Shown here: piece after piece, positions 3,261 through 18,000 of the stretch
Layout of the letters: each line of letters opens with the position of its first letter
How positions within the stretch are numbered: the stretch's first letter is position 1
Source: Plicaturopsis crispa FD-325 SS-3
Taxonomy: Eukaryota > Basidiomycota > Agaricomycetes > Amylocorticiales > Amylocorticiaceae
Direction: 5' to 3'
Length of the DNA: 43,375 bases
Assembly: GCA_000827205.1 (NCBI GenBank)
Contig: KN832575.1
Location: 237,776 to 281,150, forward strand
The notes under the pieces: generated by a model
What the model was told of the DNA's origin: nothing
The model's database searches: none
The model's input: the letters and a program-made list of their open reading frames with translations, nothing else
Translations under genes and position numbers: made by a program

Positions 3261-3333
3261 CCAGAAGTGTTTCCGGGGACGCCGGAGGTTGCACGACCAA
3301 TGCAAACTCCGTCGTCCCCAGGAACACCTCTGG
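3261..3333 (+). other. 73-nt near-perfect hairpin
   Basis: Two 33-nt arms start CCAGAAGTGTTTCC and end GGAACACCTCTGG. They pair at 28 of 33 positions by Watson-Crick rules plus one G-U, with a 7-nt loop (CGACCAA). No T-tract follows, so a simple terminator is unlikely. Size and shape fit a small-RNA precursor or a tiny fold-back element; the sequence cannot decide between them. Confidence 0.75.
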
Positions 3334-3689
3334 TTTCCTGTACTTACATGTAAAAATAATACACCCCCACAATGGATATGCAGGGCATGCACAGGACATG
3401 CACATGCAGAGTGCACTGCACCATTGTAAGCAAAATGTGCTCAGTGCCTTGGAAACTGCAGGAAATGATCAGTACGACTGCAGGGGAGAGAAGTGAGAAT
3501 ACCTTGGCATGCAGGAACACGGGCAACGGTTGGCAGCGTCCGGAAATAAGTGCATCACTGAAATTTAGGGAGAAGACGCACCTTTTCGAAGTGGCAACCA
3601 ATAATGACTAAAGTTCTGCGGAGGGACTAGTAGGCGCCGCGCGCGGGGCCTGTCAAGTTGAAACGGCACCCGCGTAATATTCCCTGGGG

Positions 3690-3697
3690 TATATAAA
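3690..3697 (+). promoter_or_regulatory. TATA box (TATATAAA) before the exon array
   Basis: A consensus TATATAAA followed by a pyrimidine-rich stretch (3717-3740, TTTTTTCGACCACCTACC) is a typical fungal core promoter. Transcription would start near 3720-3730 and run into the repeated exon array. Confidence 0.55.
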
Positions 3698-5044
3698 GGT
3701 CAGGATGTGTCTGCAATTTTTTCGACCACCTACCTTTCCCCTAGCCCTCGTAATGCCCCTCCGTCTCCCCATCCACTTATCTGTCTGGTTTCGCCCACTT
3801 CAGTTCGTCGCATGCGAGATCCAGGAGCGCAGACACCGTGTGCTCACTGAATGTTTAGGTCCGTAAATTTGTGTCTCATTCTTTTGTTGAATTATCTAGC
3901 TGATTGTCGTCGATGCTTGTAGGTTGAGGGCAAGCACGGCGCGTCTGACTGTGAGCGCGTCGGCGCGGACTCGGAAGTTCGCACTCCGCGACGCCGCCGA
4001 CATTTTGGCTCTGCACTTGGTCTGCAACTTCAAGCAGTCGCTCAACGGTTTCGAGCCGGGCCCCACTGGTAGCGTCCACTTCAAGCGAATGCTTGGGTGG
4101 AATAGAGGAGGTGTTTGGTATAATACGGGGCTGTTGGGACTCGGAGGTACGCCTTTTCGGCTTTTTTAAAATCGATCGAAATCATTCATGGTCTCGCATT
4201 CCAGCCGGTGGACGTGGATGCCATCCTAATCGTCGCACGACGTGAGGCTCCATGGGAGCCTCGGGGCAGATGAAACGTGTAGTATTGACTGCATGCACCG
4301 AAGCGCCTCTCCGTGGCGCGAGACGTCGTGCGTCGACGTGACCGGGGCACGAAGGGCGTCAAACGCTCGTATCCTAAGCAGCTTGCACGCAGCGTGCACG
4401 AAAGGTAGGCGTGCGCATTGTCTCCAGTATGGTCTCGTTCACTGACATATCGCATCTCGCAGGGTGTGCTTGGGTGCATCACCACTCATTGGGGACGCAG
4501 CACGCATGTCAAGGCTCGACATGGCGGCGCCACGGCATGAAATAAGAGGCCGCGCGCCCCTTCCTGGACGCTGCACGTAAACGTAGCGCTGCATGCATAT
4601 CCCTCCGTCTCCCGAACCACCGTATCTATGTCGGTCGAGCCACGGAGCCATATGTTACTGGTCTATCATGGCCAAAGCCGTGAAGACGGCCCTTGCTCTC
4701 TATTTTAGATATCCCTCCATGGATTCGTTGTAGCAAGTGCTAGAGGTAAGGTCTCTCATTCTTCCTTGTGTGTCAATCTCGGCTAATCTGTGTTATCTAC
4801 GACCATAGATATTTTGGTACGGAACGTTCGCTGGATGAGCGTCGGGAAGGTCATAGGCCTTCTCGATGTTTCCTTTATATCGTACCAATAAGAGGCTTCA
4901 ACGACACGATGAATACACGCCGCCCACCCCGCGTACTCGTCGCCGCATATAGCTATGGGATCGGGCGCCTTCGTTGTGAATACTGTCTCGCACAACTCAG
5001 ACAGTGTCGACACTGACCACGTTGTTGTAATAAGCTGTTTTGCA

Positions 5045-6629
5045 GCAGCGCGAAGCGCTGCCCGTGTCACCTTCACGGCAAGGGCCTCCTCGTGCCGGTG
5101 ACATGGCGAAGTATGATATATGCATCGAAGTCCGGTGGACTACCGTTATAATATGCGCGGGGTTCCATGCGGTTGGTCGTATTTTTCTGTCTTCTGCTGC
5201 CTTGGGACTGACAAGTAGCACTCCCGTAGTCCCGCCGTCCCACTGTTTTGCGTGTCAGGCCGCGCGAAGCGCTGCCGTAGATGTCGGTGCCTGGCCGTGA
5301 AGTCGCGAAGCTCCCCGTTTTCGGAGACATGACAATATATATGGATCGTCGTCCCGCGAGCGCCCCTCTACTCTACAATGTGTGGCCCGCCCTGCCGTGA
5401 TGTTGGTGCTATGCGGGGGACTTTTTATGTCGTACTAGTAGTCTGTCTTCCCGACATTCTCGCTAGCGGTCGTCGCGAGGGCCGCTTCCAGCACGCAGCA
5501 TGATGATTCGCAGTAGCAGCGCGCAGCGCTGCTGCCAATTGGTCCCCGACATGATAAAGTATATATGAATCGAAATCCGGCAAGCAGCATGTACGTATCG
5601 TACATAACGTTCGGCTATGCTCAGTATACTAACTGGCTCTTTCAGATCTGCGCGAACACCAACGCGCCAGGCGCCTCTGTGCCCGCCGCCTTTAGAGCTT
5701 GGGTCTTGCAGCCCAGGCTACGTTGCCATGGCACCGTCATGGCAATGTATGTATGGATCGAAATCCCGCGGACCGATGACTGGCGTTGCTTTGGGCGTCG
5801 GCCGCATGGAGAGTCAGTGCCGCCCTTTTCGCTGGTATTGTCGGTGTCCTGACTTATCTTCTACATCAGTTTCATCGTATGGTGCTGTCACACAGGCAGC
5901 GCGAAGCGCTGCCCATTGTTTTTTTGGATTGAACATAGCAGTGTCTATATGTATGTATTGGCGCCTCGTGAACCGCCTGCCTTGCATCCAACTTGCATCG
6001 CGTAGGCTTCCAGGTTAGTTTTTAATTCTCCTCTTCATCGTGGTGCTTTAAGTAATTGGTTGCTCTCCTAGTTGTGTCGTATCTCCGGCAGCGCGAAGCG
6101 CTGCTCCGTCTCGCCTTGCCACGCATCGTCGGAAACTCGACGTGGCAATGTATATATGGATCGACGCCCCGCGAACCGCCGCGTTGCACCGCCAGGCCTC
6201 CAGAGTCGTCTTGCATCCCCGGCAGCGCGCAGCGCTGCTACCTCCCGCCCCGCTGCTCATCCTCGAAGCCTCGACATGACAAGGTATATATGGATCGACG
6301 TCCCGCGAACCGCTCGCCTTGCCCCTCGCGGGCTTCTAGGTTAGTTTTCTATTCTTCTTTCCTCCGCTACGCATCCATTAATCATAGGAACATTCAGTTG
6401 TCTTGCGTACGCGGCAGCGCGAAGCGCTGCTACCTCTCGCCTCGCCGCCCAGCCTCGAAGCCTCGACATAACAATGTATGTATGGATCGAAGTCCCGTGA
6501 ACCGCCTGCTGTGCACTGTGCGCTGCGCAGGGCCTCTAGGTTAGTCGCATATCATTCCCTCCGTCCTCGTGCCTCAATAAATTGGTTCCTTACCAGGTAG
6601 TTTGTGTTCCCGCTAGCGCGCAGCGCTGC
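5045..6629 (+). repeat. array of ~195-bp units, each with a 17-nt stem-loop
   Basis: The stem-loop GCAGCGC-GAA/GCA-GCGCTGC lies at 5045-5061, 5259-5275 (one arm change), 5516-5532, 5896-5912, 6088-6104, 6222-6238, 6414-6430 and 6613-6629 (one or two changes). Six copies have perfect 7-bp arms. About 40-75 nt after each comes a second block, consensus ACATGACAATGTATATATGG then ATCGACGTCCCGCGAACCGC. It is seen near 5101, 5330, 5547, 5737, 5932, 6140, 6274, 6465 and 6664. Unit spacing is mostly 190-220 bp. The copy at 6222 follows the previous one after only about 134 bp and lacks the intron between them. More worn copies continue to about 7.3 kb. Confidence 0.85.
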
Positions 6630-7394
6630 TCCCGTCCGCTCCCCGCCCGTTCTTGAAGATTGGACGTGGCAGTGCACATATGGATCGTTCCCCCCGCGAA
6701 CCGCCAGTGTCGTGACGCGCAGGGGTTACAGGTAAGTTCTATGTAGCTCTCCTCGTCGTTGCGCACCCATTAATTGTTTGCTCGTTTAGTTGTCCTCCGT
6801 TTTCCGCCTAGCGAGGTTCTGCTAGTGCTACCGCGCGCACCACCGCCCATCTTCGAAGGCGCGGCGCGGCGAAGTGTGTTGAGATTCACGCCGCCGAGTC
6901 GCTTGACGCGTTTCGTCTTGGGTCTTTGCGGTGAATAAATTCTGGTTCCTTCTACACTGTCTCTCAATCTCACGGGTTCCTGATCTGCCAGCACGGCATT
7001 CGCATGCCGCGATGCTCTCCGCGTGAGTTCCCTTATGTTTTTCTCCTTTTCGGAGGTTGATGGAAAGACGCAGGGCTGTAACGGGCGCACACTCGATGCG
7101 CCGACGCGCAGCAGTGAGTTTTCAACCGTCCCTCCGGGTGGCTGAACCTAACATTGCTGCGGATAGGAATCTTCATCGCCCGGGGCTCGTTCTCTCGAAA
7201 CCTGGTTAGTGCAGTGTGTTTCGTCGTCCCCGATCCACGCTGACTTGCATCTCGCACAGCGTCCGGGATCCTCTATCCCTAAGCTCGAACCTGTGGCCCC
7301 CGGACTCGTTTCCTCGAAACATGACATAGAATACCGTTGTAGACTACCTGCATGTACGAACATGAACGCGCACCCAGGCCTGTCGTTTGCACAA

Positions 7395-7419
7395 ACCTGC
7401 AAACGGCAGGTCTTTTTTT
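7395..7419 (+). terminator. short stem-loop followed by T tract
   Basis: ACCTGC and GCAGGT form a 6-bp stem around a 5-nt loop and are followed at once by CTTTTTTT. It lies at the end of the exon array, where its transcript could stop. In a fungal Pol II gene this layout is not a proven signal, so the call is tentative. Confidence 0.3.
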
Positions 7420-7542
7420 ACCCATGCGAGCTTCCCCGCGGGGAGGGGAACCTATGATCGTGCCAAAGTGAAAAAGAGGGCAAAACGAACTTGTGTTGCT
7501 TTTGTGTTTTCATTTTTCGTCAACTTATTGCCTCTTAAGAAA

Positions 7543-8883
7543 TCACTGGGGGTCAAACGACGAAGGGGAAATGATCCCCCCACTTCTTGCCTCCTCCCAC
7601 CACAAGCTGCCGCGCAAGAAAATTTTCATTCGACGACTATGTACACGAATTTCTACCCTACCCATGTCCTCCTCCTTCGACGCCGTGCGCTGGTGCTGCC
7701 GCGCGTCCTGCGGGGGCGTCGGCGGGATGAGCGTCTGCGGCGTGTAGTACGTGGTCGCGTTCGCGCTGAACGGGTCCGGCTCCGGCCTCGCGTACACCAC
7801 GAGGTCGTGCGAGGAGTCGTCGTTGACCTCGTTCGACCCGCCGGAGGACGACGACGCGCGGATCATGTTCTGGAACATCGTGTCGCTCAGCGCGCGCCCG
7901 CGGCTCTTCACCGAGACCGACCCGGACGAGCCCGACGACGCGGACGAACGGTTGGCGAGCGAGTGGAACACCGTCTGCCCGAAGCTGAACGACTGGCTGC
8001 GGTCGTGCTGCGACTGCGACTTGTCCGCGGAGTGGAACACCGTCTCGTCCGCGGCGGCGGGCTTCAAGGGCGTCGACGTGAACGCGTGCGGCTCGACGAC
8101 CTCCGCCGCGCTCTCGAGGCGCGGGATCGGCGGCAGCGCGTGCTCCTGCGACATGTCGAACGGGTTCGTCAGCTCCGGCGGGCCGACGGGCAGCAGCATC
8201 GACGCAGGCGCGACGTGGCTCTCCCCCTCCGCCGCGAAGATCCCCGCGACGCTCGGGCGCGGGCGCGGCACCGGCGACTGCTGCAGCTTCTCGAGGAAGC
8301 TCGGCGCGTGCTCGGCGTCGCTGGCGACGGAGACGTCCGGGCTGATCACCTTGTACGCGTCGCGCGAGAAGAAGCGCACGTTCTGGCCCGTGCCCGGCGT
8401 GTTGGGGTCGCGCAGGATCGAGCGCACCGACCCGTACTTGTCGTTGCCGTACAGGCTCGCGTCGTCCGTCGGTGGCCGCGCGGTGTCCGAAGACGGGCGT
8501 AGCGATGTTTGCGAGACTGCGCAAAGACAACGGTAAGCATTTGACGTGGGGTAGGCACACCGAAACGCACCGTTTGTATTTATGTTCAGGGAGGACTTGA
8601 CGCGCTTGGGGAGCGTCATGGGCAGCCGGAGCGACGAGTCGCCGTCGTCGGCCTTGATGGCCACCTTGGACATGCGCTTGAACACGCTGCGCCGACCGTG
8701 TTTCGACGGCGACGCGGGTGGGCTGGGGGTGGGGAAAGGCACTTCTGGCGCGTCGTTCGTATCGTGAAACACTGACAAGTTCGGATGTTGCTCGTACACC
8801 CGGGTTAAAACTTCGGATTGGGCTGACGACGTCGCGTCCGAGTCTGAGCGCGGCTTGAGCGCATGGCTAAGTTTCGACCACAT
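7543..8883 (-). CDS. serine-rich disordered protein, probably 3'-truncated
   Basis: The frame begins MWSKLSHALK (an in-frame ATG seven codons upstream at 8904 is possible) and encodes a Ser/Pro-rich, largely disordered protein. It has phosphosite-like words such as SVFKRMSK, a SVRSILRDPN segment and FFSRDAYKVISPD. A 54-nt in-frame interval (8517-8570) with GT...CAG ends is probably an intron: it splits otherwise continuous Ser-rich sequence and removes a Cys/Tyr-rich insert. The convincing coding ends at HQRTASKEEDM (about 7660). Beyond that the frame runs 35-40 residues of unlike composition to a stop at 7543. The KEEDM end resembles the approach to a coiled coil, but none follows in any frame. 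I do not recognise the family. A large plus-strand frame over the same DNA is a GC shadow. Confidence 0.6.
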   Translation of the reverse strand: MWSKLSHALKPRSDSDATSSAQSEVLTRVYEQHPNLSVFHDTNDAPEVPFPTPSPPASPSKHGRRSVFKRMSKVAIKADDGDSSLRLPMTLPKRVKSSLNINTNGAFRCAYPTSNAYRCLCAVSQTSLRPSSDTARPPTDDASLYGNDKYGSVRSILRDPNTPGTGQNVRFFSRDAYKVISPDVSVASDAEHAPSFLEKLQQSPVPRPRPSVAGIFAAEGESHVAPASMLLPVGPPELTNPFDMSQEHALPPIPRLESAAEVVEPHAFTSTPLKPAAADETVFHSADKSQSQHDRSQSFSFGQTVFHSLANRSSASSGSSGSVSVKSRGRALSDTMFQNMIRASSSSGGSNEVNDDSSHDLVVYARPEPDPFSANATTYYTPQTLIPPTPPQDARQHQRTASKEEDMGRVEIRVHSRRMKIFLRGSLWWEEARSGGIISPSSFDPQ

Positions 8884-15004: not shown

Positions 15005-18000
15005 ATGAGCGCCAGTGAACTCCTCGCAAACACCCTGTCTCCTGGTACGCCACTGGTTTTCATCGCGTCGTTGAAGCCCTGGGACGTTTCTGAAGAGCAT
15101 CGCGTCCATCTGCAGACACGAATACGCGTCAGGATGCCACTCACAAACTCGAAAATGCCTCCCGAGAGAACTATGTGAGCAACCATCGTCCGCTCAAAAC
15201 ACATGGATTGATGGAGAGCTCGTCGTTATTCTAGCCGGCATACATGCTGATGCTCTCATCGGAGCTTGTGAACGAGAGCTCCCAGCTACATATACGGAAC
15301 GCTGCTGGTCTTGCATTGAAGAACGCCTTGTCTGCTCGCGTACGTAACTTGTCTGTAGCACCTCAGTTTCCCCGCGTTTCGCTCATTTTCCGGGGATCTG
15401 CAGGAAACCGCGCGTCAGACAGAATATTCGAACAGATGGCTCGCACTGGATCCTGAAAGCAGGGGAAAAGTCAAACAAGATGCGCTTATGACATTAGGCT
15501 CCACTTCTCAAAAGGCCGGCGCCGTTGGTGCTCAAGTCGTCGCTGCAATCGCTGCCGTAGAGCTCCCGAGTGATCAATGGCCCGAGTTGATTGGCCTTTT
15601 GTTAGAATTCGTCAACAATCAAAACAATACGAACATGAAGATGGCGGCTCTGCAGGCGATTGGATTCATCTGCGAAACGATCGTGCGTCCCATTTCCCAT
15701 GAACAGCGTCAACTCGTCTTGATCATGTTTTTCATATACAGAAACCTGAGATCTTGAGTCTGCGTTCGAACGAGATTTTGACCGCAGTTATTCATGGTGC
15801 GCGCAAAGAAGAGCCTTCTTCTGACGTACAACTTGCCGCTATCCATGCCCTGTACAACTCACTGGAATTTGTTCGCTCTAACTTTGAGCGCGAGGTTAGT
15901 GATTTTTCTTGCAATCACTCACGGCCATACTCAGATCTCACTTTTAAAAGGGCGAGCGAAACTACATCATGCAAGTCGTGTGTGAGGCCACTCAGAACCC
16001 GAATGTTGCAGTTCAGATCGGTGCATTCGAGTGTTTAGTCCGCATCATGGGTTTGTACTATGACAATATGGCATTCTACATGGAACAAGCATTGTTTGGT
16101 GTACGTCGTGACTTATCATTCCCTTCTCGCGTCCCTCTTACATGATCCCCTTCAGTTAACGGTCATGGGCATGAAAAACCCGGACGAGCGGGTGGCGTTG
16201 CAGGCCGTCGAATTCTGGTCAACGGTGTGCGAAGAAGAGATTGAACTCGCGATCGAAGCTCAAGAGGTACGCGTACCGTGAAGTCTTTGTAATCTCGCGC
16301 TGATTTCGTTGTAGGCTGCTGAATATGGCGAAATTCCCGAACACGAGTGCAAGTACTTCTCAAAGATTGCCCTTCCTGAGATCATCCCAGTACTCTTGCT
16401 TCTCCTCACCCGACAAGAGGAAGACGCAGACGACGACGAGTGGAACGTCTCCATGGCTGCAGGAATATGCCTATCGTTCCTTGCCCAGGCTGTTCAAGAT
16501 CATATCGTGCCGGCTGTTATTCCCTTCATCGAGGCTCATATCAAGTCTCAAGACTGGCATCAACGGGAGGCCGCAGTCATGACTTTCGGCTCCATCCTCG
16601 ATGGACCTGACCCCGCTCAGCTTACACAGCTGGTCAACCAAGCGTTGCCACTCCTCATCGACATGATGAGCGACTCAAACGTCCACGTGAAGGACACAAC
16701 CGCCTGGACTCTCGGGCGCATCTGTGACTTGCTGATCCAAACAATAAAACCGGACGTTCACCTGCATCCCCTCATCTCGGCTCTCGTCAACGGACTCCAG
16801 GATAGCCCTCGGATCGTCGCTAACTGTTGCTGGGCACTCATGAACCTCTCGGACCAGCTAGGTGTCTATTACGAGGATGAAACAGCAGAGACCGCGCAGA
16901 CCGGACCGTTATCGCCTTATTACGAGGGTGTAGTCCAAGCTCTTCTCCGCGTCTCCGAAACGTGAGCTTTCTTCAATCCTGCCAATCCTCGTTTCTAACT
17001 AGGCGAAACCACAAACTAGCACTGGAAACGAGTCCAACTTCCGGACATCTGCATATGAAGCTATAACTTCATATGTCACTCACGCCACACCCGATGTAAT
17101 TCCTGTCGTCCAAAACACGGTTGTCACCATTTTACAAAGAATGGAACAGCTACTTGGCATGACGGTATAGTGGTATCTTGATGTCTCTTAGAGTTTTACT
17201 CATTTTTGTGTTACAGAACCAAATACTGGGCGTTGATGACCGGAACAACTGGAACGAACTGCAGAGCAACTTCTGCAGCGTTGTCATCGTAAGGATCTAT
17301 CCTCACAATGCATGGTTCCATAAGACTGACCATTATTTCCGCGCAGAGCGTAATCAGGAAACTTGGCGATGGCATACAACCGATGGCGGATCGCATTATG
17401 ACCCTTGTCCTTCAGCTTATCCAAGCTGCAGGAAAGACCTCGACTGTCTTGGAGGATGCGTTCCTTGTCGTTGGCTCGCTCGCATCTGCCCTCGAGCACA
17501 ATTTCGCGCCTTATATCCAAGCGTTCCTACCATACCTTTACCCTGCTCTACAAGCGCACGAAGACACCCAACTGTGTACCGTCGCTGTCGGCATCATCGG
17601 CGATATCTCGCGTGCGCTCGGCGAGCAGAGTGCTCAATACTCGAACGCATTCATGAGCGTCTTGCTCGAGAATCTCCAGAGCGAAGTACTCAACCGCAAC
17701 GTGAAGATCTCTATCCTCTCCTGTTTTGGCGACATTGCCCTTGCGATCGGTCCTGCCTTTGAGCCGTATCTCGACACGACTATGGGCGTTCTCAGGCAGG
17801 CTGGTGCTGTCCAACCCAATCCCGTACGCCCGTATCTTGTTTACCCTGAGCGATTCTGACCTCATCATCATCTTCGATACATAGCTCGACTTTGATCTCG
17901 TCGACTACGTAAGCTCACTCCGTGAAGGTATCCTCGAAGCCTATACAGGCATCGTGACGGGCCTGAAAAACACCGACAAAGGTAGGTTGTTGCCGTTGAA

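Follow-up and report, generated by a model that had tools for sequence, protein, structure and literature searches.

What does the genome of the fungus Plicaturopsis crispa FD-325 SS-3 encode at a locus where repeated blocks alternate with predicted introns? The locus spans positions ~3720-7425 of the stretch analyzed here, 43,375 nt of contig KN832575.1 (C22 here; positions 237,776-281,150), which we call the window. A sequence-only reading had proposed that exon duplication produced a non-coding RNA whose structured modules are conserved, and most of our sequence-level tests agree with it. We favor, with moderate confidence, a gene for a long, spliced and structured non-coding RNA (lncRNA) that belongs to a dispersed family and whose units may form a multivalent protein-binding platform or decoy; RNA polymerase II is probably the maker of the predicted RNA. 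The non-coding interpretation is supported by an excess of introns on one strand, by conservation of a hairpin and a core, and by stems that differ in sequence yet still pair. It is further supported because the hairpins lie outside the counted introns, their spacing has no codon phase, and neither Rfam nor, for five array ORFs (open reading frames), Pfam returns a match.

The repeated part of the locus consists of ten homologous units between positions 5035 and 6929, all on the forward strand, on which direct repeats, nhmmer and a covariance model (R1; E = 3.6e-19 to 4.4e-39) agree. Both the nhmmer profile and R1 were made from the window units themselves. A repeat search likewise placed direct-repeat families at 5.0-6.9 kb, and nhmmer and the covariance model confirm the earlier claim that the blocks in this interval are homologous copies; beyond the ten units, neither method returned a further significant copy in the 43-kb window. 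The unit layout is a GC-rich hairpin with a C-GNA-G triloop, then a linker, then a core of ~45 nt. Alignment and column information single out the hairpin and the core as two conserved islands, with mean pairwise identities across the ten units of 0.75 and 0.70, against 0.43 for the linker and 0.42 for the tail. The typical window hairpin is GGCAGCGC-GAA-GCGCUGCC, with a loop of GAA or GCA, and the core consensus is roughly GACAUGRCAAUGUAUAUAUGGAUCGAAGUCCCGCGAACCGC. A short GGAU/RUCC stem within the core, considered as a second, NORAD-like stem, was judged unsupported by eye in the unit alignment.

Unit 1 (5035-5169, E = 9.6e-25) has a GAA-loop hairpin at 5045-5061, a linker, and a core at 5100-5145. 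The stem of unit 2 (5243-5394, E = 1.6e-23), centered at 5267, breaks after four pairs, and its core lies at 5326-5366; unit 3 (5499-5590; nhmmer E = 4.1e-17 for 5499-5592) carries a 10-bp hairpin with a GCA loop at 5513-5535 and a core at 5545-5588. By the alignment, the canonical hairpin is lost from unit 4 (5669-5802, E = 1.7e-24; core 5734-5775). Unit 5 (5880-6013, E = 2e-22) has a hairpin at 5895-5913 (GAA) and a degenerate core at 5933-5977 (E = 0.17). No intron parts unit 6 (6072-6205, E = 5.8e-36; hairpin 6087-6105, GAA; core 6138-6184) from unit 7 (6206-6339, E = 4.4e-39; hairpin 6221-6239, GCA; core 6272-6314), and these are followed by unit 8 (6398-6532, E = 7.8e-38; hairpin 6413-6431, GAA; core 6464-6507) and unit 9 (6597-6731, E = 1.3e-28; hairpin 6614-6628, GCA; core 6663-6705). 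Unit 10 (6790-6929, E = 1e-21), the 3'-most that is recognized, is degenerate and gave no separate core or hairpin match.

Introns were predicted in the window with an ad hoc rule that combines a donor score, a CTRAY-like branch site and YAG at a length of 48-65 nt. In 3720-7425 it yielded 12 non-overlapping candidates on the forward strand and 2 on the reverse strand, against a shuffle expectation of 2.44 ± 1.42 (maximum 7 in 200 dinucleotide shuffles); with 4 placed by eye, the window total is 16 candidates. Among the units, the rule predicts forward-strand introns at 5172-5229 (CTGAC branch site), 5591-5645 (GTACGT..CTAAC..CAG), 5813-5869 (GTCAGT..CTGAC..CAG), 6340-6397 and 6732-6789. Three more were placed there by eye and checked for GT..AG: 5406-5466, with the weak donor GTGCTA, 6014-6071 (GTTAGT..TAG, outside the automatic list) and 6540-6596. 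Most units are thus set apart by introns, which are 55-61 nt long. The upstream, non-repeated part has rule-predicted introns at 4405-4462 and 4746-4808, and the 3' part at 7023-7073, 7114-7166 and 7205-7259. In the spliced model the GC content is 0.59 in exons and 0.46 in introns; intron interiors have a mean identity of 0.58 in gapped alignment, against 0.56-0.62 for the shuffled sequences of the pairs listed, with some pairs clearly higher.

The junctions named as examples in the sequence-only reading (6013/6072, 6339/6398, 6539/6597 and 6731/6790) fall exactly at GT..AG introns, and its exon lengths of 142, 135 and 268 nt were reproduced. Its statement that each copy has good donor and acceptor sites at its flanks needs correcting in two places, at the fused units 6 and 7 and at the weak donor between units 2 and 3. 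A TATA-like box, TATATAAAGG, read directly from the sequence at 3690-3699 on the forward strand, is a putative promoter. Upstream of it, a long imperfect inverted repeat, CCAGAAGTGTTTCCGGGGACG ... CGTCCCCAGGAACACCTCTGG, can be seen by eye at 3263-3345.

Is the locus alone? We searched the species' own assembly (33.2 Mb, 49 contigs), and the family is described within this one genome. A DNA search with the whole array and a search with a 31-base core pattern returned the locus itself only. Shorter core patterns, allowing up to 3 mismatches, revealed the family where the 31-base pattern had not, with matches elsewhere in the genome and 0 or 1 match in each reversed control. The hairpin pattern typical of L006 and L007 was also found in other genome places (reversed controls again 0 or 1), and DNA searches with pieces of L007, L014 and L008 added loci. 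A covariance search with the aligned units, which had been proposed as a check, recovered not only the ten window units but also units in L006-L009 (E down to 6.6e-11).

With the window, eleven loci carry arrays of the module, of a second type of hairpin exon (B), or of both. The other ten are L012 (1.25 Mb), L013 (1.26 Mb), L014 (2.12 Mb) and L006 (3.13 Mb) on C1, L007 on C7 (1.09 Mb), L016 on C8 (0.42 Mb), L008 (1.21 Mb; C9:1208000-1217500), L017 (1.25 Mb) and L009 (1.30 Mb; C9:1298500-1308000) on C9, and L015 on C28 (0.10 Mb). A twelfth, at 0.243 Mb on C10, is joined to them by a common 3' end and can be read at that end only, because the preceding sequence is N. Since only the best candidates were scored in the searches, more loci may exist. 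What the sequence-only reading observed at the window locus stands and extends further than it described; the dispersed family was not visible to that reader.

The B exon, a hairpin followed by AUUUUGGCCAGCGAGCGCG, is present in L006, L007, L008 and L014-L017, and was not found in the window's first 12 kb. Its pattern is less clean (11 matches against 4 in controls), and 7 of 10 typed examples fold as the expected hairpin, while the remaining 3 and the L008 copy do not. L014-L017 are counted as family because of this exon type; core matches are present in L015 (E = 2.5e-4), L016 (E = 1.3e-4) and L017 (E = 2.2e-10). L012 and L013 are tied to L006 and L007 by a common 3' region (84-87% identity over ~140 nt) and by array architecture. 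Pattern matches on C17 and C4 (L010 and L011) were treated as chance, with no R1 match in either and a weak nhmmer E of 0.16 in L011. No array was found at L018 (C7, 1.085 Mb), which resembles sequence downstream of L007. The window-type hairpin pattern occurs in the window and as a one-mismatch copy on the minus strand at C1:3560516-3560533, outside the fetched loci. As expected for fungal sequence, viral contigs and prokaryote genome contigs gave no pattern match. Rfam gave no gathering-score match in the window or in ten of the fetched loci, and none up to E = 5 in window positions 3400-7600.

The intron excess extends to the family. With the length limit set at 48-75 nt, ten regions that we chose, one for each array locus except L009, hold 68 candidates in sense and 9 in antisense, where shuffles predict ~15. 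In the L012 and L013 arrays several introns, recurring every one or two modules, read by eye TATACTAAC, the branch site of the yeast type.

The hairpin itself recurs far more often than in shuffled sequence. Nine of the eleven arrays, 11,959 nt in all (L009 and L014 left out), contain 41 C-GNA-G triloop hairpins of at least 6 bp, where shuffles give ~0.5; the remaining 31,375 nt of the window, used as a control, contain 1. For pairing we used 50 sequence-model hairpins, of which 31 are distinct. Forty-nine are model matches with E < 1 within the array limits (one re-centered by one base), and the L015 hairpin (E = 1.1) was included by hand. Two stemless array matches, at L008 4116 (E = 2.2) and window 6528 (E = 4.6), were excluded, and a hairpin at L007 3952 (E = 1.4; intact 8-bp stem, UGC loop) is absent from the pairing and intron-overlap tests and present in the spacing test. 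Among the 31 distinct hairpins, 232 of 248 stem cells pair, whereas 500 partner shuffles average 176 paired cells and never exceed 192; sliding the partners by one leaves 25-33% of cells paired. By hand count, 48 of the 50 loops are GNA. The stem changes as a whole between subfamilies, from GGCAGCGC/GCGCUGCC in the window to GCGAGCGC/GCGCUCGC in L006 and L007, GCGAGGCCC/GGGCCUCGC in L012 and L013, and GCGGCGC/GCGCCGC in L015. One L006 copy, GCGGACGC-GUA-GCGUCCGC, has two compensated changes.

Dispersed copies are also what would be seen if the arrays belonged to a non-autonomous element, mobile or repetitive, that spreads by transposition or segmental duplication, with the RNA features as functionless remnants. 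We regard this explanation as unlikely. In its favor are the relationship of L012 and L013, 12 kb apart, and the 1307 bp that L008 and L009 have in common at 99% identity on one contig. It is also favored by a Kelch-domain open reading frame (ORF) at L015 3900-4427 (Pfam E = 2.9e-24) that passes directly into the B exon nearest to it, the first of the locus, as though the array had inserted into, or next to, a truncated gene. Most loci, however, are far diverged and still have a recognizable hairpin and core, with stems that differ while pairing and with hairpins outside the counted introns. Nor did a pairwise comparison among the window and L006-L011, in which target-site duplications were not searched, find long ends common to all loci. 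L008 and L009, ~90 kb apart, also have an 87-bp stretch in common at 100% identity, which in one locus is shifted by 3.6 kb; judging by these alignments, the two were recently duplicated, and an insertion or deletion followed.

How do hairpins and introns lie with respect to each other? None of the 50 hairpins overlaps a counted intron, margin included, where 11.7 would be expected; among the 41 found by the triloop search, one (L013 1405-1419) lies inside a predicted intron and is probably a chance match. Neighboring hairpins with an intron between them (22 pairs) have a median genomic distance of 184.5 nt, which predicted splicing shortens to 122.5 nt; for intron-free neighbors (also 22 pairs) the median is 120 nt. 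Compared with the intron-free pairs, the genomic distances differ (Mann-Whitney p = 4e-8) and the spliced distances do not (p = 0.50), with the spliced distances more scattered (standard deviation 41 vs. 11). L007 departs from this pattern, its 5' half having spacings of 70-85 nt. In the window, units 6 and 7 have their hairpins 134 nt apart with no intron, and units 5-6 and 7-8 reach 134 nt only after intron removal; the other spliced spacings are 156, 196, 268 (across the hairpin-less unit 4) and 142 nt.

These spacings bear on the idea that the conserved module acts as DNA, be it a binding site, an origin or a cruciform-forming GNA mini-hairpin, and that the introns are incidental. Without an intervening intron, the repeats keep a regular spacing, and GNA loops are known from very stable DNA mini-hairpins. 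However, across introns the spacing fits the remainder only once the predicted introns are removed, the hairpins avoid the counted introns, and the intron excess lies on the strand of the module. Action at the DNA level is therefore improbable in our view.

Several observations weigh against a structured lncRNA family. L008 (3 candidates) and L017 (2) alone lack a clear intron excess, with shuffles giving up to 3 in each. Taken alone, the core matches of L012 and L013 are weak (E = 0.014-0.83); L014 carries no exon type other than B, and neither L016 nor L017 contains a hairpin of exactly the C-GNA-G type. A weak candidate intron at 4976-5045, dropped from the overlap test, would touch the unit 1 hairpin by one base. 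The limits of the arrays and regions, like the intron rule, were fixed after inspection. Paired examples served as seeds for the hairpin models, and partner shuffles ignore relatedness; because of these seeds, and because related sequences can beat such shuffles even without structure, the whole-stem change between subfamilies outweighs the pair count. Folded as wholes, the exons have unremarkable energies (z = -2.2 to +1.7), with the last one standing out (z = -4.45), and RNAalifold on the whole unit predicts the hairpin only (7 pairs, 2 with two-sided change); the structural signal is therefore local. Finally, two ORFs in the spliced window model, of 251 and 124 amino acids (aa), each stand at about the 97th percentile of shuffles.

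These ORFs would also speak for a decayed or fast-evolving protein-coding family with repeated exons, as would unspliced frames of 425 aa in L013 and 342 aa in L012. The longest stop-to-stop ORF (251 aa) is reached by 3.5% of 400 shuffles, and the first-ATG ORF (124 aa) is matched in length by 3% of them; with all 15 introns placed on GT..AG, both lengths are unchanged. The doubtful 124-aa ORF lies at 3753-4245 on the forward strand and spans two predicted introns (3863-3922 and 4147-4204). We take the ORFs, above all the 5' one, as mild evidence for coding that is not zero. However, the homologous units lie in different frames: hairpin spacing modulo 3 is distributed 10/7/5 among the 22 intron-free neighboring pairs and 13/18/12 among 43 spliced pairs, and differences among the gap-free units 6-8 spread over the three codon positions (9/8/13, 10/8/13 and 6/4/9). 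Pfam gave no match at E ≤ 0.1 for the 251-aa and 124-aa ORFs or for the longest frames in the L006, L012 and L013 arrays, and position-wise differences, spacing phase and Pfam revealed no single conserved frame through the units. Thus, the earlier argument that a protein is unlikely, the exons keeping no phase, is borne out by the spacing and by these five array ORFs, and we give a coding family very little probability.

At its 3' end the predicted transcript has a different kind of hairpin. A terminal 16-bp hairpin followed by T7, at 7376-7419 on the forward strand, is the likely 3' end according to its fold and to alignment with L008 and C10. These three loci have in common a hairpin of differing stem sequence, then a U6-7 run, and then a second GC-rich block with the end AGGKGRACYUAUGAWC. 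Past the T-run a conserved block, TCCCCGCGGGGAGG.., lies at 7433-7459 on the forward strand; within 3 mismatches it is found in the window and at C10:242986 only, with a diverged version in L008. L006, L007, L012 and L013 have a different 3' end, similar among themselves, with a long hairpin. That long hairpin, seen by eye, and the many hairpins per predicted transcript would fit a small-RNA precursor, either for microRNA-like RNAs (milRNAs) or as a small interfering RNA (siRNA) cluster. Intact array stems are only 6-10 bp, however, and the stems of known Dicer precursors are longer, which leaves this explanation a slim chance. We also weighed, and set aside, a small nucleolar RNA (snoRNA) host, a telomerase RNA and a tRNA-derived repeat.

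Which known RNAs does the array resemble? A report on NORAD describes repeated lncRNA units in which a sequence element and short stem-loops are variously combined (PMC4947167). In the predicted transcript of the window, the sequence shows tandem units with stem-loops and no frame. In contrast to NORAD, the core is not a conserved Pumilio element (UGURUAUA/UGUANAUA), the array is divided among many short exons, and there are eleven related loci, in another kingdom. The Xist A-repeat is described as 7.5-8.5 copies of a 26-mer with stable hairpins and U-rich linkers, proposed as a protein platform (PMC5742192). Tandem hairpins are found here as well, with linkers that look, by eye, pyrimidine-rich in the window and T-rich in L012 and L013, but the loop is a GNA triloop (48/50) rather than an AUCG tetraloop, and there are an extra conserved core, units in separate exons and several loci. 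In Schizosaccharomyces pombe, meiRNA (from sme2) is presented as having many copies of a protein-binding motif and as a proposed decoy (PMC4077057), and the sme2, omt3 and lncRNA584 loci as gathering RNA-protein bodies, their RNAs having no obvious mutual similarity (PMC6898681). The P. crispa loci, in contrast, are related to one another. The meiRNA motif is a linear hexamer, UNAAAC, which is not enriched here (2 in 2846 exonic nt against a shuffle mean of 1.26, maximum 5). By the features tested, the family therefore does not belong with NORAD, the Xist A-repeat or meiRNA, since the Pumilio element is not conserved, the loops are not AUCG and UNAAAC is not enriched.

The comparison with NORAD suggests one further explanation, a Pumilio/PUF sponge with the core UGUAUAUAUGG as the binding site. 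The modules contain UGUANNUA 4 times, where 0.15 would be expected, and NORAD units combine Pumilio elements with stem-loops (PMC4947167). Nevertheless, just 4 of the 10 aligned units have an intact UGUA, several units elsewhere have UGUC or AGUA, and the spliced model contains only one canonical UGUANAUA. We consider such a sponge very unlikely.

Given the anatomy of the locus, the likeliest role of its product is that of a multivalent RNA with many equal protein-binding sites. The middle exons would have arisen by tandem duplication of a unit made of the GC-rich C-GNA-G hairpin, a pyrimidine-rich linker and the ~45-nt core, and splicing would leave neighboring hairpins mostly ~110-150 nt apart. 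Most likely, each unit would be bound by a single molecule of an RNA-binding protein that recognizes the GNA hairpin, the core, or both, so that one transcript could serve as a multivalent scaffold or decoy, and the 3' hairpin with its U-run may be an element of 3'-end formation or protection. More speculatively, the roughly one dozen loci could be a new fungal RNA-machine superfamily of spliced arrays of GNA-triloop modules with covarying stems, several with the second hairpin exon, whose RNAs would jointly build a dedicated RNA-protein body, either in trans or where they are made, with silencing or chromosome pairing as conceivable uses; we hold this possibility to be doubtful.

Most known tandem-module lncRNAs that act through multivalent protein binding come from animals. 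The fungal example compared here, meiRNA, uses a linear motif, whereas the modules described here covary structurally. The literature searched, which included few subscription papers or preprints, contained no such fungal array-RNA family. Many natural variants of one module in a compact genome make its important parts readable from sequence and testable by deletion. Exon duplication as a route to building a non-coding RNA becomes directly testable, as does the idea of introns whose removal restores even module spacing.

Two neighboring features were seen in passing. On the reverse complement of L014, positions 3-2188, upstream of its five B exons, contain ORFs that presumably belong to a Gypsy-type retrotransposon polyprotein. 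In the window, positions 16315-16965 encode an importin-beta-like HEAT/TPR protein, an ordinary neighboring gene.

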